DNA from: Armatimonadetes bacterium RBG_19FT_COMBO_69_19
Lineage (GTDB): Bacteria; Sysuimicrobiota; Sysuimicrobiia; Sysuimicrobiales; Kaftiobacteriaceae
Reading direction: 5' to 3'
DNA: 11,133 nucleotides
NCBI GenBank assembly: GCA_001768125.1
Contig: MENB01000060.1
Span: 1 to 11,133 of the forward strand
Positions 1 through 11,133 of the stretch are shown here, piece by piece. The notes beneath the pieces are model-generated. The model did not search any database and had not been told where the DNA came from. It was given only the letters and a program-made list of their open reading frames with translations. Every line of letters starts with the position of its first letter. Position 1 is the stretch's first letter. The translations under genes and the position numbers were made by a program.

Positions 1-1047
1 CTCGTCCACGGAGACGGTACGGCCGAACAGCTCCGCCTCGTCGCCGGTGCGCACGGCCCGGTCCCCCGCGTCCACCATCAGGTGATCCATACAGACCCGC
101 CCGGCGACGTGCAGGCGCTCGCCGGCGAGCGCGACCTCGGCGTTGAGACTGGCGAGACGCGGGTAGCCGTCCGCGTACCCGCAGGCGATTGTGGCGACGG
201 TCGAGGGGCGCAGGACCCGATAGGTCGCACCATAGCTCACCGCCGTCCCTGGGGCGGCGCGCACGGTCCGCGCGACCCGGCTCAGGAAGCGCATCGCGGG
301 GGTCAGCTCGACGACGCGCTGGAACTGCGCGCCGGGATACAGCCCATACATCGCCAGACCCACGCGCACGAGATCATAACGCCCGCGCGGGTGACCCAGG
401 GCGCCCGCGCTGTTGGCGGCGTGGACGATCACCTTCGGGAAGCGGCGGCGCACCGCGGGCAGCACCGCGTCGAACCGGTTGAGTTGCTCGTCGGCCAATG
501 CGTGATCGGGGTCGTCCGCGGTGGCGAGATGCGTGTACACGCCCTCCAGCCGCTGTCCGGCCCTCGCGAGACGAGCGAGCACCGCGGGCACCTCGGACAC
601 TTGCACGCCCAGGCGTGTCATGCCGGTGTCGATCTTCAGATGCAGCCGCGCCCGCCGGCCCGCCTTGAGGAGCGGCGGCAACGCTTCTACAGAAGGAATC
701 GTCAGGCTGAGCCGTGTTCGCACGGCAGGGCTGATCTCCTCGGGTGCAGCCGAGCCGAGAACCAGTAGCGGCGAATCCAGCCCTCCCGTGCGGAGAGTCA
801 GTCCCTCCTCGACCGTGGCGACGCCGAGCCACTCGGCCCCCGCGGCGAGCGCCGCGCGCGCCACCTGCACGGAGCCATGCCCGTAGCCGTCGGCCTTCAC
901 GACGGCCATGAAGCGCGTCCCAGGATCCAGCCGCTGGCGTACGGCACGGACGTTGGCAGCGATAGCATCCAGATCAACCTCAGCCCAGGTGCGGCAGGTC
1001 GCCCGATCCACCTCAATGCGGGGCCCTGTCTTCGCTCGCCTGGTCAC
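1..1047 (-). CDS. alr: Alanine racemase, PLP-dependent (partial, C-terminus beyond window)
   Basis: Interconverts L- and D-alanine in the cytoplasm, supplying D-alanine for peptidoglycan. The reading frame is open for 349 codons and runs off the window, so about 20-30 C-terminal residues are missing against the usual 370-380. Visible hallmarks: the PLP lysine in MAVVKADGYGHG (Lys51), HLKIDTGMTRLGV with the lysine that is carbamylated in Geobacillus Alr (Lys138) and Arg145, the catalytic tyrosine in SYGATYR (Tyr272), GYADGYPR, and GRVCMDHLMVD near the end. The start is taken as GTG at 1047 because it overlaps the stop of the RLP gene as GTGA. No separate ribosome site is visible, so translation is probably coupled. 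This start gives a 20-residue lead before WAEVDLDAI; an internal GTG at 1011 is an alternative. Sharing an operon with an RLP is unusual. The family call is very secure; any role beyond cell-wall supply is unknown. Confidence 0.95.
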   Translation of the reverse strand, partial: MTRRAKTGPRIEVDRATCRTWAEVDLDAIAANVRAVRQRLDPGTRFMAVVKADGYGHGSVQVARAALAAGAEWLGVATVEEGLTLRTGGLDSPLLVLGSAAPEEISPAVRTRLSLTIPSVEALPPLLKAGRRARLHLKIDTGMTRLGVQVSEVPAVLARLARAGQRLEGVYTHLATADDPDHALADEQLNRFDAVLPAVRRRFPKVIVHAANSAGALGHPRGRYDLVRVGLAMYGLYPGAQFQRVVELTPAMRFLSRVARTVRAAPGTAVSYGATYRVLRPSTVATIACGYADGYPRLASLNAEVALAGERLHVAGRVCMDHLMVDAGDRAVRTGDEAELFGRTVSVDE

Positions 1048-2270
1048 GCTCGCAGCGCCGCTTCAAGCTCGGGATGGCGACGGCCGTAGTCCTCAAGGGG
1101 GATACCGCCGAAGTAACTCTCTGCCGCCTGATGCAATGCCTTCACGCCGGAGCCGGCGCCCAGCGGATGGCTGAAGATCGCCGATCCGGCCATCGGCAGA
1201 ATGTCCCGGCCGAATGCGGCATAATTCGCCGCCAGCGTCCGCGCGGTGAGTCCCCCGGAACAGGCGGGAAGCACCGGCGCAACACGGGCCCAGGGCGCGC
1301 GCAGCACCTCGGCCAGGCCTTTGGCCTCTGCCGGAGGGTCGGTGCGCAGGTAGCCTCCCTGCGCGTACAGGTCGAGGTAATCCCCGCCCAGCAGCCGCAC
1401 AAACTCCGCGAACACCCGGGTGTCGATCCCGTACGCGGGCCGCTGTGACAGCAGCGACCGCCCTCCCGAGTGCACGTAGATCGGCACGGCGATCCCCTCA
1501 TCCTCGCGCAGCATCTGCAGCGAGGCCAAGCCTGACGCGAAGACGTTGACCATGACGCCGGTGGCACCGGCCCGCACCGCCTCGCGGGCTGCAGCCACCA
1601 TCTCATCGGGCCGGCCGCTGAGGTGCGCGCAGTAGATGACACGCCGGCCTGTGTCGTTTTCCACCTCACGCAGGGCGCGGGACACCGCACGGACCCGCTC
1701 GACGAGCGGGCAGTAGGCGGGGTTGTTCATCTTCTCGTCGTCTTTGATGAGGTCGATCCCTCCCCGCGCCGCGGCGGCGCAGCGCTCGGCCACCTCTTCC
1801 GGTCCCAGCCCGGCTCCCGGCTTCACGATGGCTCCAAACAGCAGGGCCTCGCGCGCCTTGCCTGCCAGCGCCCGAGTACCCTCGACCCCGAACCGGGGGC
1901 CTCGAAACGTCGCCAGGATCTCCTCCGGCAGGACCACGTCGGCTAGACGGACGACCTCGGCAAAGGGGCGCTCGAACAGCGGCCCCGCGGTGAGGTAGAG
2001 CCAGATGGCGGGAAAGAGCGAGCCGCGCTCCGGCAGGTTGGCGGTGGGAAACGCGATCGCCGCGGAGCCCCTGCCCGGGCCGGTCTCCTGCACGGTGTGC
2101 ACCCAGGCCACCGAGCGCGCATAGCGCTCCGTCGGCGGCCCGCCACCCGACCACGATCCCGCGCTCTCCTCCCGCGCGATGAACTCGGCGGTCTGCCGGA
2201 GATCACCGGTCGTCTCGATGTCGTACACACCGAGAAACGTGCCGCGGGGAGGATGCCGTGCCTCGTTCAT
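1044..2270 (-). CDS. RuBisCO-like protein (form IV type, RuBisCO large-subunit superfamily)
   Basis: 408 residues with the RuBisCO large-chain order: N-terminal domain (about 1-125, with AREESAGSW matching the E60 region), then the TIM barrel. Kept: Lys150 in GAIVKPGAG (equivalent to K175), and the metal-binding Lys176, Asp178 and Glu179 in GGIDLIKDDEKMNN (K201, D203, E204), His267 (H294) and Ser-Gly-Gly 338-340 (S379-G381). Changed: K177 is Gly, N123 is Thr94, R295 is Ser268, H298 is Arg271, H327 is not conserved, and the loop-6 lysine K334 is absent. By family knowledge this rules out a CO2-fixing enzyme. RLPs catalyse enolisation, isomerisation or decarboxylation of phosphorylated keto-sugars (for example MtnW, or OiaX of apiose catabolism). 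The substrate here is unknown; the sugar-kinase and importer neighbours point to carbohydrate catabolism. ATG start at 2270 with only a weak ribosome site; the stop overlaps alr by four bases. Confidence 0.93.
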   Translation of the reverse strand: MNEARHPPRGTFLGVYDIETTGDLRQTAEFIAREESAGSWSGGGPPTERYARSVAWVHTVQETGPGRGSAAIAFPTANLPERGSLFPAIWLYLTAGPLFERPFAEVVRLADVVLPEEILATFRGPRFGVEGTRALAGKAREALLFGAIVKPGAGLGPEEVAERCAAAARGGIDLIKDDEKMNNPAYCPLVERVRAVSRALREVENDTGRRVIYCAHLSGRPDEMVAAAREAVRAGATGVMVNVFASGLASLQMLREDEGIAVPIYVHSGGRSLLSQRPAYGIDTRVFAEFVRLLGGDYLDLYAQGGYLRTDPPAEAKGLAEVLRAPWARVAPVLPACSGGLTARTLAANYAAFGRDILPMAGSAIFSHPLGAGSGVKALHQAAESYFGGIPLEDYGRRHPELEAALRA

Positions 2271-2349
2271 CGCTTATCCGATCACATCGATTCGACAGGA
2301 AACGCGGGCGTGCCTACTGAAACAACACGCGGGCTGGGGCCGTGTGGGC
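2271..2349. promoter_or_regulatory. Divergent promoter region between RLP and PfkB kinase genes
   Basis: These 79 bases must hold promoters for both the minus-strand RLP-alr pair and the plus-strand kinase run. I see no convincing -35/-10 pair. Visible elements are an imperfect palindrome TCGATTCGA (2287-2295) containing a 9-mer also found upstream of the ABC importer, and two direct copies of ACGCGGGC at 2302-2309 and 2327-2334 (25 bases apart). These could be operator half-sites, but the repeat is short and GC-rich, so chance is possible. Confidence 0.5.
2286..2294 (-). promoter_or_regulatory. Candidate operator motif CGAATCGAT, copy 1
   Basis: Read on the minus strand this is CGAATCGAT. 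The identical 9-mer occurs on the plus strand at 5370-5378, ahead of the ABC transporter genes. Both lie in intergenic DNA of the same locus and are AT-richer than their surroundings. I saw no third copy by eye. A shared transcription-factor site is an inference; no regulator gene is in the window. Confidence 0.3.
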
Positions 2350-3288
2350 ATGCCTGATGTCACCTGCGTGGGAGTGCTCGTCGCAGACGTCATCGTGCGC
2401 CCGGTCGACACCTGGCCGGATCCGGGCCGGCTTGTGGTCGTCGACGGCCTCGAGGTGCACTCCGGAGGCCTCGCGCATACGACGGGCGTCATCCTGGCGA
2501 AGTTGGGCGTCCCCACCGCCGTGGTCGGGCGGGTCGGCGCAGACCTCTTCGGAACCTATCTGATCGACGTACTCCGGGACAACCGGGTCGAGGTCCACGT
2601 CGGGCGCGACGAAACGATCAGCACGTCCACGACGGTCGTGATGGTGGCCAGCAGCGGCGAGCGCTCATTCTTCCATCTCCCCGGCGCCAACACCCACCTG
2701 AGGCGGGAGGATGTCCCGCCGGCGCTGCTCGCCCGCAGCCGCATCATGCACCTCGGCGGGTACTTCCTCCTTCCAGGGTTGGACGGCGCGCAGGCCGCGG
2801 CGCTGCTCGCTCAGGCGCGGGCGGCGGGATGCCGGACCAGCCTGGACATGGCCTGGGATGCGCGCGGACGGTGGATGGCGTTGCTGGCCCCGTGCCTGCC
2901 GCACCTGGACCTGCTGTTTGGAAACCGGGACGAGCTGACGCGCGTCACCGGCGCCGAAGACCCGGTCCGCATGGCCGCCCACCTCCGCGAATTGGGTGTG
3001 GGCACTGTCGCCGTCAAACTGGGCGAGGACGGCGCGTACGTCGACGGCGGAAACTGGCGCGGCCGTGTGCCGGCGTTCTCCGTCGAGGTCGTCGACACCA
3101 CAGGCGCCGGTGACGCGTTCTGTGGAGGGTTCCTCACGGGATACCTGGCCGGGTGGGATCTGGAGCGCACCACGCGGTTCGCCAACGCCGTGGGGGCGAT
3201 GTGCGTCACGGCCATGGGCGGGAGCACAGGCATCAGCGGCATGGACGAGACGCTGCATTTCATGGACACCGCTTCGCTGCGCACGTGA
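2350..3288 (+). CDS. PfkB-family carbohydrate kinase (ribokinase-like branch)
   Basis: 312 residues, the normal length for a ribokinase-superfamily sugar kinase transferring phosphate from ATP to a sugar hydroxyl in the cytoplasm. The N-terminal substrate-binding motif is visible as VHSGGLAHTTG with LGV and VGRVGADLFG following (about residues 36-68). The ATP-site signature DTTGAGDAFCGGFL lies at 249-262 with catalytic base Asp255, and GNRDEL at 191-196 fits the usual N-x-x-E region. The substrate cannot be read from sequence; the neighbours suggest a keto- or aldo-sugar from the adjacent importer and isomerases. ATG at 2350 is chosen because the protein then begins with the first beta strand (VTCVGVLVADVIV). 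No good ribosome site precedes it, and in-frame GTG at 2344 is an alternative. The stop overlaps the next gene as GTGA, indicating an operon. Family secure, substrate unknown. Confidence 0.92.
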   Translation: MPDVTCVGVLVADVIVRPVDTWPDPGRLVVVDGLEVHSGGLAHTTGVILAKLGVPTAVVGRVGADLFGTYLIDVLRDNRVEVHVGRDETISTSTTVVMVASSGERSFFHLPGANTHLRREDVPPALLARSRIMHLGGYFLLPGLDGAQAAALLAQARAAGCRTSLDMAWDARGRWMALLAPCLPHLDLLFGNRDELTRVTGAEDPVRMAAHLRELGVGTVAVKLGEDGAYVDGGNWRGRVPAFSVEVVDTTGAGDAFCGGFLTGYLAGWDLERTTRFANAVGAMCVTAMGGSTGISGMDETLHFMDTASLRT

Positions 3289-4436
3289 CGCGCCCCGAAG
3301 ATCTGCTGGACCGAATGCTGGAGACGGGCCTGCTGGTGTTCGAGCCGACATACGTCAGACGGTTGTACAGAGACGGCGGACGGCTCGGGTTGTCCGATCG
3401 GCCGGGCGGCACGTACCTGCCGCGGTCAGGGTTGTGGCGTCCGGAGCGCTGGATTGCCTCCACGGTGGCGGCGACCAATCCCTTCCCTCGTCCGGATGAA
3501 GGACACAGCCGTCTCGCCATCTCTACGCCCCGATCGGGCCGGCGGGCGCTACGCGGCATGACGTTCCGTCGCGCCCTCGAGTTACGCGGAACGCAGATCC
3601 TGGGCCCCGCGTACGCCGGGACGTACGGCGCCGACTTCCCTGTGCTCGTGAAGATCCTCGATCCCGGCGAGGCGATCGTCTTCCACGTCCACGCCCGAGA
3701 CGCCGATGTGCTCCGCCATGCCCACCGGTTTCCCGGCCAGCGGTGGGGGAAGGATGAGGCCTACTACTTCCTGCCTGCTCCGCCGGGCGCGGTCCCGTAT
3801 ACCCACGCGGGGCTCTACCCCGGCGTGACGCCGCGGATGCTGTCCGAGGCGATCCGGCGTGGAACGGCGCTGGACCTCTCGCCCGTGTTTCATCAGCGCA
3901 GCGGCGAAGGCTTCCACGTGCCTGCCGGCATCCCTCATCGCCCCGGCACGGCGCTCACGCTGGAGATTCAACAGCCCTCAGATGTGTACACGCTGTTGGA
4001 GCGGCGGTGGGGAGACCGGCCGCTCACATCGGCCCAAATGCATCCGGGCTTTCCCGGGCTCGATGATGCCCTCGCGCTGCTCGACTACGACGCCGCGACC
4101 GATCCGAACCTGCTGGAGCGTCACCGGCTTCTCCCTGAGCCGATTGCCGAGACCCGCTCCCGCGGGGGCGAGGAAGCCTGGATCTTCCCACCCAGGCTGC
4201 GCCGCTTTTCCGGCAAGCGGCTGGTCGTCCGCCGCCGCTATGAGAGCCTGGAATCCGGCCCCTATGTGCTCTTCGTCTGGCACGGTCGCGGACGGCTCCT
4301 GGGTCGACACCTGCGCCCCGGCCTGGAGGCCCTGGTCACGGCCGCAGCAGCGACGCGGCCCCATCTCTACGAGGCCGATGGGGAGCCGCTCGAAGCCTTC
4401 AAGCTGTTCCCGCCTGCGACCCCGGAAGGACGCTGA
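3285..4436 (+). CDS. Class I mannose-6-phosphate isomerase-like cupin protein
   Basis: 383 residues. The central cupin resembles type I phosphomannose isomerases: PVLVKILDPGEAIVFHVHARD (119-139), GKDEAYYFL (155-163), then HVPAGIPHRPG (211-221) and LTLEIQQPSD (224-233). Predicted metal ligands are His136, Glu158 and His218. The first ligand, Gln in the usual Q-x-H, is His134 here. By family knowledge such enzymes interconvert an aldose-6-phosphate and a ketose-6-phosphate using zinc, but the substitution and weak similarity outside the core make a different sugar likely. Residues 1-100 and 240-383 (a second, degenerate cupin-like half) I cannot tie to specific features. GTG at 3285 overlaps the upstream kinase stop by four bases and has no ribosome site of its own, so translation is probably coupled. 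Earlier in-frame codons would lie inside the kinase gene and encode a low-complexity stretch, so they are rejected. Confidence 0.8.
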   Translation: MTRPEDLLDRMLETGLLVFEPTYVRRLYRDGGRLGLSDRPGGTYLPRSGLWRPERWIASTVAATNPFPRPDEGHSRLAISTPRSGRRALRGMTFRRALELRGTQILGPAYAGTYGADFPVLVKILDPGEAIVFHVHARDADVLRHAHRFPGQRWGKDEAYYFLPAPPGAVPYTHAGLYPGVTPRMLSEAIRRGTALDLSPVFHQRSGEGFHVPAGIPHRPGTALTLEIQQPSDVYTLLERRWGDRPLTSAQMHPGFPGLDDALALLDYDAATDPNLLERHRLLPEPIAETRSRGGEEAWIFPPRLRRFSGKRLVVRRRYESLESGPYVLFVWHGRGRLLGRHLRPGLEALVTAAAATRPHLYEADGEPLEAFKLFPPATPEGR

Positions 4437-4439
4437 GTC

Positions 4440-5363
4440 ATGCTGCTGGTGGTGTCTCCCAACCTCTGTCTTGACCGCATCGTCGTCGTCCGCGGATTCG
4501 ACGTGGGACGGGTGCACCGGGCGGAGTCGGCGACGGAGCTGGCCAGCGGCAAGGGGCTCAACGTGGGGCGGGCGGCCCGCGCGCTCGGGGTCGACGTCAG
4601 AGTCGTGGGCCTCGTCGGCGAGGGGCACGGGGGCGAGGCCATCCTGGAAGGCGCACGCGCCCACGGTGTTCCCCTGGATGCCGTCCGCGTTCCAGGGCCG
4701 GTGCGGGTCTGCACCCTGATCATCGACCCGGGTCGCGCGGAGACGGTGATCAATGAGCCCGGTCCACCGGCCGGGGGCGACGCCGTGCAGAGGCTTTGGG
4801 AGTGTGTGCGGGCCAGGCTGGAGGGGGCGCGGGCCGTCATCCTCGCCGGGAGCCTGCCGCCGGGGGTGCCGCCGACTTTCTACGCCGAGGTCATCCGGCA
4901 GGCGCAGCGGATTCCCGTGATCCTGGATGCGGCGGGGGACGCGCTGCGCCTGGGCGTGGCGGCGAGACCGTATCTCGTCAAGACGAACCAATTCGAGCTG
5001 CAGAGCGCGGTGGGACGGCCGCTGGACACCCCGGAGGCCGTGAGGAAGGCCGCCGAGGAGGTGCGCGCGATCACCGGGGGAAGTGTGCTGATCACGCTGG
5101 GCGACAGGGGAGCCCTGCTGTGCGGCGCCGGGGAGGCGTGGGAGATCGCGCCGCCCGAGGTCGACAGGATGAACACGATCGGCGCAGGGGACAGCCTGAC
5201 CGCGGGGCTGGCCAGCGGGATGCTCCAGGGCGTCTCCCTGCTGCAGGCTGTGCGCACCGGCGTGGCGGCCGCGGCGGCCGATGTCGCGACGCTGCTGCCG
5301 GGCACGGTCGACGCCGCACTGGTCGCGCATCTGGTGCCGCAGGTGGCGGTCCGCGCGGTGTAG
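4440..5363 (+). CDS. PfkB-family hexose kinase (1-phosphofructokinase / tagatose-6-phosphate kinase branch)
   Basis: 307 residues, the typical length for the FruK/LacC/Pfk-2 branch, which phosphorylates ketohexose monophosphates to bisphosphates with ATP. Visible: the N-terminal SGKGLNVGRAARALG (36-50, the branch's GGKG-x-NV-R motif), ETVINEPGP (101-109, typical of FruK/LacC), AGSLPPGV (136-143), KTNQFEL (181-187) and the nucleotide-site NTIGAGDSLTAG (245-256) with catalytic Asp251. It begins at ATG 4440, three bases after the preceding stop (4434-4436), with GGAAGGA at 4424-4430 as a good ribosome site. It is the last gene of the three-gene kinase/isomerase run before the importer. It differs from the other kinase upstream, so the two probably phosphorylate successive intermediates. 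The exact substrate (fructose-1-phosphate, tagatose-6-phosphate or another) is not resolved. Confidence 0.9.
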   Translation: MLLVVSPNLCLDRIVVVRGFDVGRVHRAESATELASGKGLNVGRAARALGVDVRVVGLVGEGHGGEAILEGARAHGVPLDAVRVPGPVRVCTLIIDPGRAETVINEPGPPAGGDAVQRLWECVRARLEGARAVILAGSLPPGVPPTFYAEVIRQAQRIPVILDAAGDALRLGVAARPYLVKTNQFELQSAVGRPLDTPEAVRKAAEEVRAITGGSVLITLGDRGALLCGAGEAWEIAPPEVDRMNTIGAGDSLTAGLASGMLQGVSLLQAVRTGVAAAAADVATLLPGTVDAALVAHLVPQVAVRAV

Positions 5364-5369
5364 TAATAA

Positions 5370-5378
5370 CGAATCGAT
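5370..5378 (+). promoter_or_regulatory. Candidate operator motif CGAATCGAT, copy 2
   Basis: Identical to the minus-strand 9-mer at 2286-2294 in the RLP/kinase divergent region. It lies seven bases after the kinase stop codon and about 100 bases before the binding-protein start. Co-regulation of importer and catabolic genes by one factor would explain it; chance cannot be excluded. Confidence 0.3.
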
Positions 5379-5407
5379 CCCATTTCGGGTGCGGTCAAAG
5401 GAGGTGG

Positions 5408-5455
5408 GTGCGCGTCCCGAACGCGGGCGGCGGAAGGACCGATCGAGGTGGCTGA
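5408..5455 (+). CDS. Possible 15-codon leader peptide
   Basis: GTG at 5408 opens a short frame reading VRVPNAGGGRTDRGG and ending at TGA 5453-5455. AAAGGAGGT lies just upstream (5397-5405); spacing is short from the GGAGG core but acceptable from AAAGG. The stop codon falls exactly in the four-base loop of the downstream hairpin, so a translating ribosome would occupy the hairpin's left arm. This is the layout expected of a translation-dependent attenuator, but the peptide has no recognisable control codons and could be chance. Confidence 0.2.
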   Translation: MRVPNAGGGRTDRGG

Positions 5456-5464
5456 GGCCACCTC
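5445..5464 (+). promoter_or_regulatory. Perfect 8-bp hairpin directly upstream of the binding-protein ribosome site
   Basis: GAGGTGGC, loop TGAG, GCCACCTC. The right arm ends at 5464 and the ribosome site starts at 5465. No T-run follows, so it is not a classical terminator. It may stabilise the 5' end of the importer transcript or modulate access to the ribosome site. Confidence 0.5.
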
Positions 5465-5477
5465 AAGGAGGGGGAAG

Positions 5478-6734
5478 ATGGTTCGGCACATGCGTTGGCT
5501 TGCGGTGTTGAGTGTGCTGTTGATCGGGGCCGTCATCCCGATCGGATCGGCCGGGGCAGCCGGGACGAACAAGTTGGAGATCTTCAGCTGGTGGACCGCC
5601 GGAGGCGAGGCGGAAGGCCTGGCAGGAATGTTCGCGGCGTACAAGCAGCGCTACCCCGGCGTGGAAATCGTGAACGCCACCGTCGCCGGCGGCGCGGGCA
5701 CGAACGCCAAGGCGGTGCTGGCGACGCGCCTCACCGGAGGCGATCCGCCCGACTCGTTCCAGGTCCACGCCGGGCTCGAGATCCAGACATACGATCCGGA
5801 GAAGTTCCTGGAGCCCCTCGACTCGCTGTACAAGTCCGAGGGATGGGACAGAGCCCTGCCCAAGGGCGTTCTGACGCTGCTGCAGTACAAGGGCCACTAC
5901 TGGGCGGTGCCGGTGAACATCCACCGCGCCAACGTCCTTTGGTACAGTAAGAAAGTCTTTTCGGCCAACAACCTCACCCCGCCGAAGACCTTCGCCGAGT
6001 TCTTCAAGATCGCGGACACGCTCAAGGCCAAGGGCATCGTGCCGTTCGTGCTGGGCGACAAGGAAGGCTGGGAGTCCGGGCACGCCTTTGAGGCCGTGCT
6101 GATCGGCACCCTCGGCGCCCAGGGTTATGCCGGGCTGTGGACCGGGAAGACGCAGTGGACGGACGCCAGGGTGACCCAGGCGCTGAACACCTACAAGAGG
6201 ATGATCAGCTACACCAACACAGACCACGCGGCCCTGACCTGGGACGGCGCCGGGCAGTACCTCATCAACGGCAAGGGCGCGATGCAGATCATGGGCGACT
6301 GGCAGAACGGGTGGTTCCAGTCGAAGAACTACAGTGACTACGGCTGGGCCACGCCGCCCGGGAACGCGGGCGTCTTCGACGCGCTGTCCGACAGCTTCGC
6401 CCTGCCCAAGCGCGCGAAAGACCGGGACAACGCCCTCAACTGGCTGAGGGTGGCCGGCTCGAAGGCGGGCCAGGAGGCCTTCAACCCGAAGAAGGGCTCG
6501 ATCTGTGCCCGCACCGACTGCAACCAGGCGCTATTCAACGCCTACCTGCAGTCGGCGGCCAAGGACTGGCAGAGCAACACGCTCGTGCCGAGCGTGGTTC
6601 ACGGCGCCGCGGCGATTGAGAGCTGGGCCGTGAAGTACAAGGACATCATGGCCCTGTTCGTCACGAGCGGCGACGTGGCCAAGACGCAGGCGTCGCTCCA
6701 GGCGGCATGCAAGGACGCCGGCGTCTGCAAGTAA
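5478..6734 (+). CDS. ABC sugar transporter, periplasmic solute-binding protein (glucose/mannose type)
   Basis: 418 residues, family 1 extracellular solute-binding protein. It binds a sugar outside the membrane and delivers it to the two permeases downstream. The mature part closely follows the Thermus thermophilus glucose/mannose-binding protein as I recall it: LEIFSWWTAGGE (33-44), GGDPPDSFQVHAG (87-99), VPVNIHRANVLWY (144-156), IMGDW (271-275), LSDSFALPK (303-311) and FNPKKGSI (335-342). Signal peptide: basic MVRHMR, a hydrophobic stretch 7-23, and an A-x-A site near Ala25-Ala27; there is no lipobox cysteine, so it is likely free in a periplasm. Four cysteines, all late (343, 348, 411, 417), could form two disulfides. 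ATG 5478 is chosen because of the strong ribosome site AAGGAGGGGG 5465-5474; GTG 5448 upstream lies in the hairpin and adds no signal. The exact sugar is uncertain. Confidence 0.95.
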   Translation: MVRHMRWLAVLSVLLIGAVIPIGSAGAAGTNKLEIFSWWTAGGEAEGLAGMFAAYKQRYPGVEIVNATVAGGAGTNAKAVLATRLTGGDPPDSFQVHAGLEIQTYDPEKFLEPLDSLYKSEGWDRALPKGVLTLLQYKGHYWAVPVNIHRANVLWYSKKVFSANNLTPPKTFAEFFKIADTLKAKGIVPFVLGDKEGWESGHAFEAVLIGTLGAQGYAGLWTGKTQWTDARVTQALNTYKRMISYTNTDHAALTWDGAGQYLINGKGAMQIMGDWQNGWFQSKNYSDYGWATPPGNAGVFDALSDSFALPKRAKDRDNALNWLRVAGSKAGQEAFNPKKGSICARTDCNQALFNAYLQSAAKDWQSNTLVPSVVHGAAAIESWAVKYKDIMALFVTSGDVAKTQASLQAACKDAGVCK

Positions 6735-7705
6735 TCAGCAACGAGGGTCAAGCGGCGGCGAGGCAGTCCGGCAGCGGGCTGCCTCGCCGCATACGTGGCG
6801 GGAGTCGCCGGTGGCCCAGCAGCGACCGGGTGACGTCACTCCTGCTGATCGCCCCCTCCGTCCTCGCCGTTGCGGTCTTCGTCTACGGCTTCATCGGCTT
6901 CACCGCGTTCGCCTCGCTCACGAAGTGGGACGCCCTGGCTCCGGACTTCACCTTCGTCGGCTTGCGGAACTACGTGCGACTCTTCGAGACGGTACGCTTC
7001 CAGATCGACCTGCGCAACACGGTGACCTTCACGGGCTTCTTCCTGGTGAGCTGCCTCTCACTGGGCTTCCTCCTGGCGGTCTTGCTGGATCAGCGCATCC
7101 GCGCCGAGGGCGTGTTTCGCAGCATCTTCCTGTTCCCGCTGGCGCTGTCGTTCATCGTCACCGGTGTCGTGTGGCGGTGGCTGCTCAACCCGGGTAGCGT
7201 GCAGCTGGGCAGCACCGGCATCAACCTGCTGCTGGACCGGATCGGGCTGGGCCTCCTCAAGAGCGGCTGGTACACCGACCCCAAGTTCGGGATCAAAGCC
7301 GTGGTCATCGCCGCCACCTGGCAGATGTCGGGCTACGTGATGGCCATGTATCTGGCAGGGCTCCGCGGCATCCCCGAAGAGCTCCGCGAGGCGGCGCGGG
7401 TGGACGGCGCCAGCAGCTTCCAGGTGTACCGCCACATCGTCGTGCCCCTGCTCAACCCGATCACTCTGGGGGCGGTGATCATCCTGGGGCACATCTCACT
7501 CAAGATCTTCGACCTGGTCGTGGCGATGACGGGACCCGGGCCGGGTTTCTCCTCCGACGTGCCGGCGTTTTTCATGTTCGACACGACGTTCCGCGGTAAC
7601 AACTTCGCGCAGGGGGCCGGCATCGCCATCATCCTGCTGGTGATGATCGCAGTGTTGATCGTGCCGTACCTGGTCTACAGCCTGCGCACGGAGACGCAGC
7701 GATAG
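6707..7705 (+). CDS. ABC sugar transporter permease 1 (MalF type)
   Basis: 332 residues with about six membrane segments, beginning at SLLLIAPSVLAVAVFVYGF (44-62). The conserved EAA loop that docks the ATPase is EELREAARVDG (224-234) followed by HIVVPLLNP (243-251). With permease 2 it forms the inner-membrane channel for sugar received from the binding protein. The start is uncertain. ATG 6707 lies 28 bases inside the binding-protein gene and has no clear ribosome site. GTG 6830 (residue 42) would begin almost at the first membrane segment and also lacks one. An ATA at 6791 is a third, weaker option. If translation starts at 6707, the strong stem-loop 6755-6790 is inside the coding region; if later, it is a true intercistronic element. 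The gene end overlaps permease 2 by four bases. Family assignment is secure, start low confidence. Confidence 0.9.
   Translation: MQGRRRLQVISNEGQAAARQSGSGLPRRIRGGSRRWPSSDRVTSLLLIAPSVLAVAVFVYGFIGFTAFASLTKWDALAPDFTFVGLRNYVRLFETVRFQIDLRNTVTFTGFFLVSCLSLGFLLAVLLDQRIRAEGVFRSIFLFPLALSFIVTGVVWRWLLNPGSVQLGSTGINLLLDRIGLGLLKSGWYTDPKFGIKAVVIAATWQMSGYVMAMYLAGLRGIPEELREAARVDGASSFQVYRHIVVPLLNPITLGAVIILGHISLKIFDLVVAMTGPGPGFSSDVPAFFMFDTTFRGNNFAQGAGIAIILLVMIAVLIVPYLVYSLRTETQR
6755..6790 (+). promoter_or_regulatory. 12-bp perfect stem-loop after the binding-protein gene
   Basis: Left arm GCGGCGAGGCAG (6755-6766), 12-base loop, right arm CTGCCTCGCCGC (6779-6790). It begins 20 bases after the binding-protein stop. 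No T-tract follows. Similar structures between binding-protein and permease genes (the malE-malF case is the known example) protect the upstream mRNA from 3' decay and give excess binding protein over permease. That role here is inferred. Confidence 0.6.
7690..7693 (+). promoter_or_regulatory. Ribosome binding site deciding the permease 2 start
   Basis: GGAG with an eight-base spacer to the ATA codon at 7702. This is the only well-placed ribosome site near the first membrane segment of permease 2 and is the main reason for choosing that non-standard start. Confidence 0.5.
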
Positions 7706-8580
7706 CCGATCACGCGCTCGCCCCCACCGCGCCCCGGCCGATCCCCTGGCTCCGTTGGGCCACGTACGCCGTCCTCGCCGGCCTGGCCCTGCTCTACCTG
7801 CTGCCGGTCTACGTGCTCGTCGTCACCGGGATGAAGAGCTTCCAGGAGGTCAACCTCTACCGGATGTGGGACGTGCCGGCGCGTATCTCGCTCGACAGCT
7901 TCATCACGGCCTGGTTCGGCAGCGAGAGCCAGGGCTTCCGCGGCCTGCAGCACAACTTCTGGAACAGCGTACGATTGGCGGTCCCGGGCACGCTCCTGTC
8001 GGCGCTGCTGGGGTCGATGAACGGGTACGTGCTGGCCAGGTGGAAGTTCCGCGGCGCCGATGCGGTGTTCGCGCTGCTGCTGTTCGGGATGTTCATCCCC
8101 TACCAAAGCATCCTCATCCCGCTCGTGCGGGTGCTGAGCGCCGTGGGGCTGTACGGGTCGATCCCCGGGCTGATCGTTACCCACGTCGTCTACGGCCTGC
8201 CCATCACCACCCTGATCTTCCGGAACTACTACGCGACCGTGCCGGGAGAGCTGGTGGAGGCGGCCAGGATCGACGGCGCGGGGATGCTCGGCATCTACCG
8301 CCGCATCATCTTCCCCATCTCGATGCCGGGGTTTGCGGTGGTCATGATCTGGCAGTTCACGTCGATCTGGAATGACTTCCTCTTCGGGGTCATCGTCACA
8401 CCCCGCCCGGCGGTGCAGCCGATCATGGTGGCGTTGAACAATCTGGCGGGGAGCTACATCGTGGAGTGGAACGTGCAGATGGCCGGGGCGCTGCTGGCCG
8501 CGCTACCGACGATGATCCTGTACATCGTGCTGGGGCGCTACTTCATGCGGGGCCTGCTCGCAGGATCGCTGAAGGGCTAG
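7702..8580 (+). CDS. ABC sugar transporter permease 2 (MalG type), probable ATA start
   Basis: 292 residues from 7702, the usual length for this family, with about six membrane segments. The first is [19 protein letters not shown] (about 23-41). The ATPase-docking EAA loop is [13 protein letters not shown] (182-194) followed by RIIFPISMP. Partner of permease 1 in the importer. In this frame there is no ATG, GTG or TTG between about 7640 and 7813. GTG 7813 would cut away the first membrane segment, which family members need. ATA 7702 overlaps the upstream TAG as ATAG, is preceded by GGAG at eight bases, and gives a normal N-terminus ([18 protein letters not shown]). I therefore infer an ATA start, or an ATG/GTG altered by mutation or sequencing error. 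The stop TAG shares CTAG with the converging isomerase gene. No ATPase gene follows; a shared MalK-type subunit elsewhere is likely. Confidence 0.88.
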
Positions 8581-9674
8581 CGTGTCCCCATCAGGATCTC
8601 CAGCACGAGGTGGTCCAGCCGCTCATACGGAAACACCCGGGGCGCGCCGCCGGGTTCCGCCGCTTCGTCCACTTCCGCCGTGTCCCACCGCTTGATGTCC
8701 TGCAGGATCTGGCGGACCTCGGGGTCGTCCCGGAACTGCCGGACCTTCTCGGCCAGGATCTGGTAGGCGCGGATGCATCCTTCCACAAATACCCACACCC
8801 CCTGCTCATCCGTGGTGCGATACGGGCGGGCGTCGAACGTACGCGGTCCCGGCCAGTCTTCCTCCTCCAGCAGCTTCACCACGAAAAAGCCGTCCTTGAG
8901 GTTGGCGCCCCCGAACCTGAGGTCCTGATCGAAGCGCAGAGGCCGCTGCGCGTTCAGGTGGATGCCGAAGAGCTTGCCGGCGTACAGCGCGTGCGCGACC
9001 TCGTGCGCCGGGTTGAGCCCGGCCAGGGCGGCGTGGGCCAGCTCAGGCACGACCCCGACGCGCTCGGGGTGATCCAGTGTGGCGATGAACCCCAGGACGT
9101 GGCCCACCGTGGACAGGTAGAGGTCGCCCCTCGGCTCGTTGGGTTTGGGCTCGATCGACAGGCGCATCGCATAGCCCTGCCGCGCGATGTAGTCGGCCAG
9201 CGCATTGAACCCATCCCGCAGCCGCTTCAAGGCATCAATCGGGGAGCGGCCGGCGTCGACCTCCGCCCCGTCCCGGCCTCCCCAGATGTTGAAGAGCGGC
9301 GCGCCGAGCAGGTGGCCCACATCGATCGCCGCGGTGTAGCGCTCGATGGCCAGCGATCGCACTCGCGCTTCGTTCGACACCATGCCCCCGTCCTTGAAGA
9401 CGGGGTCCACGAACATGTCCGAGCCGCACGCTACGCAGACGACGCCGGTGTCTTCCATCCGCCGCCGCGCCTTCCGGATCAGATCGTCGCGCTCCGCCAG
9501 ACGGCTGCCCCAAGGAATCAGGTCCTCAGCATGCAGCTCAAACGCCTGGACGCCGTGGGCGGCCAGGCCGCTGATCGCGTCCAGGGGATCACGAGGACCG
9601 CGCGTGGGGGCCCCGAATGGATCGCCTCCCCGGTGCATGATCGTCCAGAGCCCGAAGCTGAAGGTGCGCTTCAC
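8577..9674 (-). CDS. xylA: Xylose isomerase family protein with an altered metal site
   Basis: 365 residues, matching the short actinobacterial xylose isomerases without gaps at a constant offset of six from Streptomyces numbering. Such enzymes convert D-xylose to D-xylulose, or glucose to fructose, using two divalent metals. Kept: His48 and Asp51 (H54, D57), Trp131 (W137), Glu175 and Lys177 (E181, K183) in SIEPKPNEPRGD, Glu211 and His214 (E217, H220), Asp249 and Asp251 (D255, D257) in FDQDLRFG, Asp281 (D287). The exception is His239 in FGIHLNAQ at the place of D245, a metal-1 ligand that is Asp in the xylose isomerases I know. The substrate may therefore differ, so the symbol is provisional. 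GTG start at 9674 has an excellent ribosome site, GGGAGGT (9681-9687 complement, six-base spacer). It converges on permease 2 at CTAG and diverges from galK. Confidence 0.92.
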   Translation of the reverse strand: MKRTFSFGLWTIMHRGGDPFGAPTRGPRDPLDAISGLAAHGVQAFELHAEDLIPWGSRLAERDDLIRKARRRMEDTGVVCVACGSDMFVDPVFKDGGMVSNEARVRSLAIERYTAAIDVGHLLGAPLFNIWGGRDGAEVDAGRSPIDALKRLRDGFNALADYIARQGYAMRLSIEPKPNEPRGDLYLSTVGHVLGFIATLDHPERVGVVPELAHAALAGLNPAHEVAHALYAGKLFGIHLNAQRPLRFDQDLRFGGANLKDGFFVVKLLEEEDWPGPRTFDARPYRTTDEQGVWVFVEGCIRAYQILAEKVRQFRDDPEVRQILQDIKRWDTAEVDEAAEPGGAPRVFPYERLDHLVLEILMGTR

Positions 9675-9772
9675 CGTCCCACCTCCCGGATCTCTTCCTT
9701 GCGTCTTCTCAGTCGTGCCGCACCCACCCTCTTGTGGAGAGGAGACAGACCCGCCAACAAGAAGCGGCCTTC
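9675..9772. promoter_or_regulatory. Divergent region between xylA-like gene and galK
   Basis: Up to 98 bases serving both directions. It contains the isomerase ribosome site (9681-9687, minus strand) and a small palindrome CCTCT-TGTGG-AGAGG (9728-9742) that could be an operator or chance. GGAGAGGAGA (9736-9745) resembles a ribosome site but lies 27 bases before the preferred galK start. The 9-mer CGAATCGAT seen in the two other intergenic regions is absent here, so this pair may be regulated separately. Confidence 0.4.
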
Positions 9773-10957
9773 GTGGCTCGGGAGCGGCCAGATCCGTGGA
9801 GAGAGACGATCCGGCTCTTCGCCGATCGGTTCAGCGGTGAACCCGTGCTGCGCGCCCAGGCCCCCGGCCGGGTGAACCTCATCGGCGAGCACACGGACTA
9901 CAATGACGGCCTGGTCCTCCCCGCGGCCATCGACCGCACCGTCACCATCGCGGCGGGCCGGAACGGCACCGGCCGGATCCGCCTCCACGCCGCGGCCTAC
10001 GACGAGCTCGTCGAGTTCCCGGCGGCGTCACCCGGGAGCGTTCCGCTCCAGGGCTGGGCCCGCTACCCGCAAGGCGTGGCGGCACAACTGGCCGCGCGCG
10101 GGATCAGACTCGCCGGGATGGACGCGGTCATCACGGCCGACCTCCCCATCGGCGCGGGGCTCAGCTCCTCGGCCGCGCTCGAGGTGGCCGTCTCGCTCGC
10201 GCTCGAGCACGCCGCCGGGGTGACGCTGCCGGCGCGTGAGCGGGCCCTCCTGTGCCGTCGCGCCGAGGTCGAGTTCGTGGGGATCCCCTGCGGCATCATG
10301 GACCAGTTCGCGGTCAGCCTCTGCCGGCGGGGACACGCGCTTTTCCTGGATTGCCGCTCGCTGGAGACGCACCACATCCCCCTGCCATCCGGTGTGGTTC
10401 TCGCCGTCTGCGACACCGGCGTGCGGCGAGCGCTCGAAGATTCCGGCTACGCGATCCGGCGGCGGGAATGCGAGGAGGCGGTGCGGTGGCTGCGGGGCCG
10501 GGGCCGGCCGATCACAAGCCTCCGCGACGTCACGGTCGATGACCTGCCCGGGGTGGAGAAGGAGATGCCCGAGCCGCTGCGCCGGCGGCTGCGCCACATC
10601 GTCACCGAGAATGCGCGCGTGATCGAGGCGGCACGGGCACTCGAAGGCGGGAAGCCGGAAGATCTTGGGCCGATCTTCCGAGCCTCACACCGGAGCCTGA
10701 GAGACGATTACGAGGTGAGCAGCCCCGAGCTCGACGCGATGGTCAACGCGGCCCTCGCCTCGCCCGGCTGCCTCGCCGCGCGGATGACGGGGGCAGGGTT
10801 CGGGGGCGCCGTCGTTGCCCTGGTGAGGCGATCGGAGGCGCAGCGGTTCCTGGCCGCCGTCACTAACGGGTACCGGCAGCACATCGGACGCGAGGGAACA
10901 TTCCTCACCGCCGAACCGGCGGACGGAGCGACTGTGGCTTCGTTGCAGGAACCCTGA
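9773..10957 (+). CDS. galK: Galactokinase (GHMP kinase family)
   Basis: Phosphorylates alpha-D-galactose at C1 with ATP, the entry step of the Leloir pathway, in the cytoplasm. All signatures are present: the galactokinase-specific PGRVNLIGEHTDYNDG near residue 31, the GHMP ATP loop LPIGAGLSSSAALE, the catalytic aspartate in GIPCGIMDQF, and the C-terminal MTGAGFGGAVVAL. From GTG 9773 it has 394 residues, the usual length, starting ARERPDPWRETIRLFADRF. The frame stays open to GTG 9734 (407 residues). Neither start has a well-spaced ribosome site, so the start is uncertain; the family-typical N-terminal length favours 9773. No galT or galE is visible next to it in this window. Its pairing with a glucose/mannose/galactose-type importer fits galactose as one of the imported sugars, but a related sugar is not excluded. 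Confidence 0.93.
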   Translation: MARERPDPWRETIRLFADRFSGEPVLRAQAPGRVNLIGEHTDYNDGLVLPAAIDRTVTIAAGRNGTGRIRLHAAAYDELVEFPAASPGSVPLQGWARYPQGVAAQLAARGIRLAGMDAVITADLPIGAGLSSSAALEVAVSLALEHAAGVTLPARERALLCRRAEVEFVGIPCGIMDQFAVSLCRRGHALFLDCRSLETHHIPLPSGVVLAVCDTGVRRALEDSGYAIRRRECEEAVRWLRGRGRPITSLRDVTVDDLPGVEKEMPEPLRRRLRHIVTENARVIEAARALEGGKPEDLGPIFRASHRSLRDDYEVSSPELDAMVNAALASPGCLAARMTGAGFGGAVVALVRRSEAQRFLAAVTNGYRQHIGREGTFLTAEPADGATVASLQEP

Positions 10958-10963
10958 GGTGCA

Positions 10964-10988
10964 GCCGGCGACGGAAGGGGCCGCCGGC
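10964..10988. terminator. Weak hairpin between galK and the converging gene
   Basis: Inverted repeat GCCGGCG (10964-10970) and CGCCGGC (10982-10988) with an 11-base loop, seven bases after the galK stop and 21 bases from the stop of the converging gene. GC-rich and in the right place for a bidirectional terminator, but no T-run flanks it, so the assignment is tentative. Confidence 0.35.
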
Positions 10989-11009
10989 AGGCGGACAGGA
11001 CACTCGGAT

Positions 11010-11132
11010 TCAATCCGTTAACTGGATGACCCGGTCTGACTGCTCGCCACTGTTGATCCGACGGATGGCGACGGGGAGGCGGCCGGCGACCTCCGACGCG
11101 AGCATGCCGACCATCCCCATCTCACCCGCCAG
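11010..11132 (-). CDS. Unrecognised protein, C-terminal fragment (partial)
   Basis: The last 40 codons of a minus-strand gene whose start lies beyond the window, ending at TGA 11012-11010. The fragment contains EMGMVGMLASEVAGRLPVAI and ends in SDRVIQLTD. About 34 of 40 codons end in G or C, like the neighbours, which supports coding. I do not recognise the family from this short tail. It converges on galK across a 52-base gap, so it is not in the galK operon. Confidence 0.55.
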   Translation of the reverse strand: MAGEMGMVGMLASEVAGRLPVAIRRINSGEQSDRVIQLTD

Positions 11133-11133
11133 G

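Follow-up and report, generated by a model that had tools for sequence, protein, structure and literature searches.

A RuBisCO-like protein encoded with two sugar kinases and a phosphomannose-isomerase-like cupin: a possible ketohexose-bisphosphate epimerase or isomerase

To our knowledge, few functions of RuBisCO-like proteins (RLPs) have been described: methionine or thiosugar salvage, and the decarboxylation or transcarboxylation of apionate. What, then, does an RLP do when its gene lies among genes for sugar kinases and sugar import? The locus that raises this question is an 11,133-nt stretch of DNA (the window; assembly GCA_001768125.1, contig MENB01000060.1, positions 1 to 11,133, forward strand) from Armatimonadetes bacterium RBG_19FT_COMBO_69_19, placed by GTDB in Bacteria; Sysuimicrobiota; Sysuimicrobiia; Sysuimicrobiales; Kaftiobacteriaceae. 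Open reading frame and family scans agreed with the gene content of the original prediction, in which RLP points away from a run of PfkB1, CUP, PfkB2 and sugar importer genes, and a xylose-isomerase-like (XylA-like) gene and galK lie adjacent (Table 1).

Table 1. Features of the window, with the family evidence for each (PMI, phosphomannose isomerase)
Feature	Position	Strand	Evidence and remarks
alr (alanine racemase)	1..1047	-	3' end beyond window; TIGR00492 306 bits, cut-off 168
RLP (RuBisCO-like protein), 408 aa	1044..2270	-	PF00016 151.6 bits
Divergent RLP/PfkB1 intergenic region, 79 bases	2271..2349	.	
PfkB1, ribokinase/IolC/YdjH-like sugar kinase (core)	2350..3288	+	PF00294 190 bits
CUP, class-I PMI-like cupin, 383 aa (core)	3285..4436	+	profile and predicted fold
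PfkB2, 1-phosphofructokinase/tagatose-6-phosphate-kinase-type (core)	4440..5363	+	TIGR03168 245.9 bits, cut-off 216.4
SBP, sugar ABC importer binding protein (layout A only)	5478..6734, start maybe 5448	+	PF01547 102 bits
PermA, sugar ABC importer permease	6707..7705, start maybe 6830	+	PF00528; GlcT-like 140 of 360 bits
PermB, sugar ABC importer permease	~7705..8580, exact start uncertain	+	PF00528; GlcU-like 186 of 340 bits
Xylose-isomerase-like TIM barrel (layout A only)	8577..9674	-	TIGR02631 (xylA_Arthro) 384 bits
galK, galactokinase (layout A only)	9734..10957	+	TIGR00131 295.5 bits, over cut-off 226.65

A conserved core in two layouts

Linkage was counted across 43 genomes of the window's order, 8 of which carry this RLP. 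PfkB1 and PfkB2 lie within the RLP cluster in all eight (PfkB1 is truncated by the contig end in G006), and CUP does so in seven, the remaining contig ending before CUP. The trio of PfkB1, CUP and PfkB2 was present in 0 of the 35 genomes lacking RLP when CUP was counted at at least 60% identity. With a looser search cut-off it appeared in one of them (G029), which has both kinases, a 38% CUP-like match ~17 kb from PfkB1, and no RLP. There the two kinases lie near a DhnA-type aldolase (locus L113), so they can work without RLP. The core of the cassette is RLP, PfkB1, CUP and PfkB2.

This core occurs in two layouts: in layout A RLP is divergent from the kinases, and in layout B all lie in a single operon with RLP overlapping PfkB2, by 4-10 bases in 4/4 loci (L013-L016). 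The importer in the layout-B stretches examined is a different one (29-42% identity), and neither a XylA-like gene nor galK was present in them. We therefore rejected the importer, XylA-like gene and galK as core members, since they are confined to layout A and do not stand beside RLP in these layout-B stretches. In L066, a XylA-like gene lies directly downstream of RLP with an overlap of 1 base. The original prediction had proposed a check of whether the neighbours recur beside close RLP homologues; all eight homologues keep both kinases, plus the PMI-like gene wherever the contig reaches it, while the importer, xylose-isomerase-like gene and galK proved to be tied to one layout.

The gene next to RLP in close loci other than L011 (below) is alr, a XylA-like gene or PfkB2; in G007 the contig ends at RLP. 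In the window, alr and the 3' end of RLP share 4 bases, provided that the first GTG is the alr start. The alr gene has no match in the close loci L011, L012, L013-L016 and L002, and its position is probably incidental; we rejected it as a partner of RLP because it adjoins RLP in the window locus only. CUP starts with a GTG that overlaps the PfkB1 stop. A consensus scan of the divergent RLP/PfkB1 region found no sigma-70-like site. The binding protein scored 120 of 500 bits against the GlcS-like NCBIfam model, and the XylA-like protein fell below the TIGR02631 cut-off (447 bits), outside the Arthrobacter-type xylose isomerases as that model defines them.

Family and active site of the RLP

The RLP belongs to the RuBisCO superfamily (PF00016 cut-off, 30.1 bits), and its predicted structure, modelled on a protein differing at 2 of 408 positions, has the RuBisCO fold (query TM 0.83-0.90 for the top 50 Foldseek matches). 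It scored under the cut-off of each of the six NCBIfam models that it matched. Form III RuBisCO gave both the first Foldseek match and the best single-model score, yet this was only 205 bits against a TIGR03326 cut-off of 497.45. Scores for MtnW (the DK-MTP-1-P enolase) were 192.3 of 409 bits (NF007095) and 141.9 of 513.6 (TIGR03332), and for OiaX 191.4 of 700 (NF042437). In a tree of 65 rows the RLP separated from MtnW, from IV-photo (1ykw and 2qyg), from OiaX and DUF1537-linked RLPs and from forms I and III. It thus lies outside every assigned clade in the tree, as the original prediction required; reference sequences of other named form IV groups, which we take to be the R. rubrum-type isomerase, IV-AMC and IV-GOS among others, were not in this tree. 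Three sequences over the OiaX cut-off (L041, L048 and P0071) were placed elsewhere than the window RLP.

The RLP keeps K175, K201, D203, E204 and H294 and has lost K177, R295, H327 and K334, which are active-site positions of carboxylating RuBisCO. The retained set comprises the metal/carbamate and base residues. The four lost columns hold G, S, D and Y in all 10 rows of the subclade to which the window RLP belongs. With all four replaced it does not qualify as a carboxylating RuBisCO (forms I-III), and we rejected a true RuBisCO on the loss of K334 and the other residues. R295 and H327 bind the second phosphate in RuBisCO, and their loss counts against a bisphosphate substrate. A basic R/K replaces H298 in 39/39 clade rows and could bind a phosphate. 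The gene is under purifying selection (dN/dS ~0.13-0.16), and the window's genome (G000) has no second PF00016 match. K201 and H294 are missing in L017, L018 and P0061, and one function common to the whole clade is therefore not required. By record titles, the wider clade spans Armatimonadetes/ANGP1, Chloroflexi, Poribacteria, Omnitrophota, Planctomycetes, Acidobacteriota and others.

The metal/carbamate site is kept as in MtnW, and the RLP should perform enolase chemistry. The OiaX and DUF1537-linked RLPs share its fold and conserve the same five retained residues, and several likewise have sugar-type transporters and catabolic genes nearby. They differ in their supported separation in the tree, in having K334 and R295, and in their partner, a four-carbon acid-sugar kinase, whereas the window RLP is partnered by PfkB kinases and a PMI-fold protein.

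Sysuimicrobiota RLPs have already been reported as a form IV RbcL clade (PMC11604079), and a sugar epimerase was suggested from its neighbours for an RLP of a Hakuba actinobacterium (PMC7325909); the accessible parts of these sources, whose sequences were not in our tree, describe no kinase/PMI cassette or pathway. Among the matches listed in open-licence literature we found no function assigned to the RLP-PfkB1-CUP-PfkB2 cassette.

Kinases, cupin and neighbouring aldolases

The best PDB match of PfkB1 is YdjH (3h49, 139 bits). PfkB2 passes the cut-off of the hexose kinase/1-PFK subfamily (Table 1), in which the characterised enzymes produce ketohexose 1,6-bisphosphates, and falls below those of the exact enzymes (TIGR03828, 240.8 of 292 bits; TIGR01231, 95.5 of 409.55); its best PDB matches are F1P kinase (2abq), T6P kinase (2awd), 1-PFK and Pfk-2. 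CUP has no Pfam or NCBIfam match, including any class-I PMI model. Its profile matches PMI structures (1zx5/1qwr, E ~5e-6), and its predicted structure (pLDDT 73; the modelled protein differs from CUP at the start and at 1 other residue) has PMIs as its first 17 Foldseek matches (query TM 0.50-0.58). Ten of 23 CUP relatives weakly match Cupin_2 and 0/23 any PMI model; H134-x-H136, E158 and H218 are conserved.

In the nearest relative (L011, RLP 78%) the next gene, which shares 4 bases with the 3' end of RLP, encodes a probable LacD-type tagatose-1,6-bisphosphate aldolase. The match to PRK12858 (114.4 bits over 127 profile positions, cut-off 184) covers the first 137 residues only, where the contig ends, and this is the one such neighbour in 8 close loci. 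The cassette resembles the tagatose-6-phosphate/fructose-1-phosphate routes (LacC/FruK plus LacD) in PfkB2 and, in L011, in this probable aldolase. It differs from them by adding RLP and a PMI-fold protein, by PfkB1 being a different kinase type, and by the scores of PfkB2 under each exact-enzyme model.

Among 22 loci of more distant RLP relatives, five have such a kinase or aldolase directly beside RLP: a LacD-type aldolase, followed by FGGY and PfkB kinases, in L019, a PfkB1 homologue in L020, PFK in L024 and L040, and a DhnA-type aldolase in L028. The remaining 17 have none directly beside it. A PfkB1 homologue is present in 13/18 of the distant relatives' genomes and lies beside RLP only in L020; eight of these neighbourhoods, one of them with no readable PfkB1 gene, look generic. 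Among 400 genomes drawn from L020's phylum, 11 had a match, and only L020's own match scores clade-like (592 bits, next 283). The viral contigs searched held no confirmed relatives. CUP occurs in 6/291 genomes of the phylum of L025, beside a PfkB1 homologue in L164 and ~2.5 kb from an XI-like gene in L166, with no sugar neighbours recognised at the other loci. Family scans did not support the labels 'UxaC-like' (genes of L025 and L043) and 'GatZ-like' (L037).

In L115, a locus of the window's own genus that lacks RLP, a PfkB2 homologue (53%) has as neighbours PFK and a LacD-type aldolase that passes its cut-off. Within the order, PFK is found in 39/43 genomes and PF01791 in 40/43, each including all 8 with RLP, and PF01116 in 6/43, one of which (G006) has RLP. 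We rejected the idea that RLP makes up for the lack of a glycolytic PFK or an FBP aldolase, as neither family is absent from RLP genomes so as to require replacement.

A candidate reaction and its alternatives

The RLP lacks the CO2-handling residues, and its gene keeps company with those of two sugar kinases and a sugar-isomerase-like protein; its probable role is therefore to rearrange a phosphorylated sugar within an undescribed pathway of sugar degradation. Action on a phosphorylated keto-intermediate, as originally predicted, remains the best reading. We propose that the cassette encodes a hexose catabolic route in which PfkB1 would phosphorylate the incoming sugar, CUP would interconvert aldose and ketose phosphates, and PfkB2 would add a second phosphate to give a ketohexose-1,6-bisphosphate. 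From this phosphorylated ketohexose the RLP may abstract the C3 proton to form a 2,3-enediol, the first step of RuBisCO itself, and return the proton on the opposite face or to a different carbon, acting as a ketose-bisphosphate 3-epimerase or isomerase; a LacD/FBP-type aldolase would then split the product into triose phosphates. The substrate is rather likely to be a phosphorylated ketose of the cassette, and the odds run somewhat against the step itself being bisphosphate epimerisation or isomerisation. For the full proposal, a RuBisCO-fold ketohexose-1,6-bisphosphate epimerase/isomerase for which RuBisCO's side reaction (enolisation and 'wrong' reprotonation) would be the principal one, within a hexose route that uses two kinases, we estimate a probability of roughly 0.3. 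LacD aldolases accept several ketohexose bisphosphates, so an epimerase would be less needed, which counts against the proposal. There is chemical precedent in the formation of XuBP by misprotonation of the RuBP 2,3-enediol, noted in PMC10212915.

The RLP might instead act one step earlier, as an AlsE-like ketose monophosphate 3-epimerase or isomerase, with PfkB2 then making fructose or tagatose 1,6-bisphosphate. Linkage to PfkB1, CUP and PfkB2 fits this equally, and the loss of R295 and H327 suits a single phosphate. So far as we are aware, RLP substrates apart from RuBP carry one phosphate, which also favours it. The RLP-aldolase overlap in L011, and PFK or aldolase beside RLP in L019, L024, L028 and L040, fit a bisphosphate as well, and we regard the earlier step as unlikely.

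Less probable again is that the RLP itself cleaves the ketohexose bisphosphate by a retro-aldol reaction through a Mg-bound enediolate, replacing the aldolase. The RLP contigs of the window's genome and of four layout-B genomes have no PF01791 or PF01116 match, and in the former genome, whose assembly is 81% complete, no LacD-type gene was found, only a 53-bit PF01791 match. However, an aldolase gene adjoins RLP in L011, L019 and L028, and the other 7 RLP genomes have PF01791 matches of 84-119 bits away from RLP: beside PFK in G006, G008, G009 and G017, ~1.5 kb from it in G003, and not near it in G004 and G007.

OiaX-like chemistry, in which the RLP would decarboxylate or rearrange a 3-oxo sugar-acid phosphate, is improbable. 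Superfamily membership and some clade neighbours (a mannitol-dehydrogenase-type gene in L025 and L043, an ILVD_EDD dehydratase in L027) are consistent with it, but the window genes include no sugar-acid kinase or dehydrogenase family, and model scores, residues and tree led us to reject OiaX identity. Methionine or thiosugar salvage, of the MtnW or MTRu-1-phosphate isomerase type, is very improbable and MtnW was rejected: the genome does encode MtnA (contig C7), but MtnA does not track RLP (39/43 order genomes, 36 over cut-off; 7/8 with RLP), the MtnW scores are far under cut-off, and the RLP falls with neither the MtnW nor the IV-photo rows in a tree lacking the R. rubrum-type isomerase. The absence of usual RLP partners claimed originally thus holds for the window genes, which include no mtn gene or DUF1537-type kinase, and not for MtnA in the genome.

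A clade linked to two kinases, one for a sugar and one for ketohexose phosphates, and to a PMI-fold protein, with a bisphosphate aldolase joining them in some members, points to a concrete substrate class. PMC12663927 states that isomerases known as RLPs are the probable ancestors of RuBisCO, and the finding would therefore bear on the origin of RuBisCO. If the RLP is indeed a RuBisCO-fold bisphosphate epimerase or isomerase, the wider clade would be a reservoir of sugar-phosphate isomerases, with a bearing on the origin of RuBisCO chemistry.

Gene content and conservation of the cassette

Open reading frame and family scans confirmed the gene set of the window on which the original prediction of a sugar import and kinase locus was based (table). 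PfkB1 shares four bases with CUP, a gap of three separates CUP from PfkB2, and the start of alr overlaps the RLP stop, provided that the first GTG is the alr start. The host assembly (2.24 Mb, 81% complete) belongs to a family whose genomes are named Armatimonadetes bacterium or Terrabacteria group bacterium ANGP1, the latter being Candidatus Segetimicrobium genomatis, Sysuimicrobiota, in the NCBI taxonomy.

Among the 43 genomes of the order, nine carry PF00016, and in eight of these it is an RLP of the window type. The ninth protein (G012; 391.7 bits to PF00016) has just 30% identity with the RLP of the window; judged by sequence, it is probably RuBisCO proper. Homologues of PfkB1 were found in 12 genomes (E up to 1e-40), of PfkB2 in 10 (E 1e-30), and of CUP at 60% identity or above in nine, with matches of 38–39% in two more. 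Both kinases lie in the RLP cluster in all eight RLP genomes and CUP in seven; the contig of the eighth, G006, stops within PfkB1. None of the 35 genomes lacking a window-type RLP has all three partners with CUP at 60% or above, although the 43 genomes are not independent trials because they are related and several are incomplete. At that cut-off the partial sets without RLP are both kinases (G029), PfkB1 with CUP (G019 and G016, the CUP of G016 broken into two frames), PfkB1 (G038) and PfkB2 (G002); a looser cut-off gives G029 the trio, its CUP-like match (38%) lying some 17 kb away from PfkB1. The G019 run (L111) shows that CUP and PfkB1 exist as a module apart from RLP.

The cassette occurs in two layouts. 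Layout A (the window's genome, G004, G007 and G017) is divergent, with a common importer, XylA-like gene and galK. Layout B (G003, G006, G008 and G009) has the order RLP-PfkB2-PfkB1-CUP on one strand, with an overlap of 4–10 bases between RLP and PfkB2 and a divergent importer distinct from that of layout A (29–42% identity), of which the G009 contig carries just the beginning; G003 has two extra genes ahead of CUP. Between the layouts, the importer binding proteins share 29–31% identity. The original interpretation is supported in part: the kinases and cupin of the predicted locus recur around RLP homologues, and its importer, XylA-like gene and galK are a shared set in layout A. Trees of RLP, PfkB1 and PfkB2 group the four layout B genomes, and the CUP tree groups the three that bear CUP (bootstrap 91–100 over the four trees); layout A, with members from two families, is weakly resolved. 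For all four core genes dN was far below dS in the pairs computed, with a dN/dS of 0.14 for the least saturated RLP pair.

Genes of the window and features at other loci
Locus	Positions	Strand	Feature
Window		-	alr, adjoining RLP
Window		-	RLP
Window		+	PfkB1, CUP, PfkB2, sugar ABC importer, divergent from RLP
Window		-	xylose-isomerase-like gene, past importer
Window		+	galactokinase, after xylose-isomerase-like gene
L065	12871-13773		tartronate semialdehyde reductase just outside window (TIGR01505 404, cut-off 340.75); adjoins NAD(P)H-hydrate repair enzyme gene
L012 (G007, layout A)	1-443		second binding protein beside galK, 35% to window's; start like layout B one by eye
L111 (G019)	7058-15156		one run of CUP, other importer, PfkB1, different XI-like protein, apparent FGGY kinase; no RLP
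L113 (G029)	6232-11411		cluster of DhnA-type aldolase (PRK07226, 222 vs 241 bits), PfkB1 and opposite-strand PfkB2; no RLP
L113 (G029)	9221-10300		protein by PfkB1, like that of L022 by eye only; NCBIfam scan, no match
L022 (Poribacteria record)	1491-2579		protein by RLP, like that of L113 by eye only; NCBIfam scan, no match
L164 (genome from phylum of L025)	1668-3942		55% CUP homologue divergent from 37% PfkB1 homologue; RLP not seen within 12-kb stretch
L120 (Vibrio nigripulchritudo plasmid, predicted conjugative)	692-5311		divergent RLP between split transketolase-like genes and FGGY kinase; a further RLP in a sugar-kinase setting
L117 (Haloarcula plasmid)	1261-3911		RLP, then four-carbon acid-sugar kinase family gene
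L019			beside RLP: LacD-type aldolase, followed by an FGGY kinase (xylulokinase-like) and a PfkB-family kinase
L020			beside RLP: PfkB1 homologue, 47%
L024, L040			beside RLP: PFK
L028			beside RLP: DhnA-type aldolase

Placement and residues of the RLP

The best NCBIfam scores of the window RLP all fell far below their cut-offs (form III 205/497, MtnW 192/409, OiaX 191/700). In a maximum-likelihood tree of 65 rows, with a midpoint root used for drawing only, it sits in a group of 39 rows (support 96/95) nested in one of 41 (100/96) that adds two divergent proteins. The named form IV groups represented in the tree were MtnW, by four PDB chains, IV-photo, by two, and OiaX with the DUF1537-linked RLPs; the window's group is separate from all of these and from forms I/III. 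Placement outside MtnW and OiaX is in line with the pathway originally proposed. L118, a member of the DUF1537-linked group, and the solved B. fungorum RLP 3nwr match each other with 655 bits.

At what we take to be the RuBisCO positions in spinach numbering, E60, W66, K175, K201, D203, E204, H294, S379, G381 and G403 are retained in the window RLP and in all nine remaining members of its subclade, which also share the substitutions N123P, K177G, R295S, H298R, H327D, K334Y and G404S. Position 298 is R or K in all 39 rows of the group. The carbamylated lysine K201 (to S) and H294 (to E) are lost in L017, L018 and P0061, and E204 is Q in P0069, so parts of the group may differ in function; the first three probably have different or metal-free chemistry.

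Elsewhere, the 700-residue metagenome protein P0074 has a RuBisCO-like domain fused to MtnA (methylthioribose-1-phosphate isomerase). A second, weaker MtnA-like match (102–131 bits) was seen in G003, G005, G006, G008, G009 and G029, which are all four layout B genomes and two without RLP; matches of 40–92 bits were seen in seven other genomes without RLP.

Among the open-licence literature matches listed, no title or abstract opening assigns the RLP-PfkB1-CUP-PfkB2 cassette. PMC7325909 suggests a sugar-epimerase role for an actinobacterial form IV protein from its neighbours and calls the function of relatives in several phyla unknown; PMC6302742 summarizes MtnW and the apiose-pathway RLPs. 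PMC11604079 relates RbcL sequences of two Sysuimicrobiota families to the form IV group, in passages that give them neither neighbourhood nor specific function.

A candidate reaction for the RLP

PfkB1 is of the ribokinase/IolC/YdjH type by family scan and structure matches. PfkB2 passes the cut-off of the hexose-kinase/1-PFK subfamily (245.9 bits against 216.4), and among solved structures it comes closest to fructose-1-phosphate kinase, tagatose-6-phosphate kinase, 1-phosphofructokinase and Pfk-2, enzymes whose products are ketohexose 1,6-bisphosphates. Pfam and NCBIfam scans of the window CUP gave no match; a PDB search with its family profile hit phosphomannose isomerases (E about 5e-6), and the top 17 Foldseek hits of its predicted structure, which is of modest quality (pLDDT 73), were all PMI chains (query TM 0.50–0.58).

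After the RLP closest to that of the window among the genomes (78% identity; L011, G004) comes a gene overlapping it by 4 bases. The contig breaks off after 137 residues of its product, and these score 114 bits against the tagatose-1,6-bisphosphate aldolase subfamily (cut-off 184). G002, of the window's genus and without RLP, has a 53% PfkB2 homologue adjoining PFK and a full LacD-type aldolase (326.8, cut-off 184), with a sugar-isomerase-like gene, under cut-offs, in the same stretch; in G029, also without RLP, both kinases lie near a DhnA-type aldolase. A kinase or aldolase directly adjoins RLP at five of 22 distant-relative loci and is not immediately beside it at the other 17, three of the 22 (L040 included) being partial, assigned by similarity alone and outside the tree.

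The residues retained in the RLP are those that bind the carbamylated metal site and aid enolisation, and K334, absent from the window RLP, is required for CO2. RuBisCO itself forms xylulose-1,5-bisphosphate by misprotonation of the enediol, according to PMC10212915. In the simplest reading, which we put at roughly 40%, PfkB2 would form a ketohexose 1,6-bisphosphate, the RLP would act on it as a ketose-bisphosphate epimerase or isomerase, and a bisphosphate aldolase would follow. The overlaps of RLP with PfkB2 in layout B and with a putative bisphosphate aldolase gene in the nearest relative point to this reading, in which step order, substrate and sugar are inferred. Since LacD enzymes accept more than one stereoisomer, an epimerase would be less needed. 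Action on a monophosphate ahead of PfkB2 seems unlikely, and a retro-aldol role for the RLP or decarboxylation of a sugar-acid phosphate is more doubtful still.

The cassette itself is real and conserved, with an RLP that falls in none of the assigned clades of the tree, and we infer with moderate confidence the mechanism of the RLP within it.
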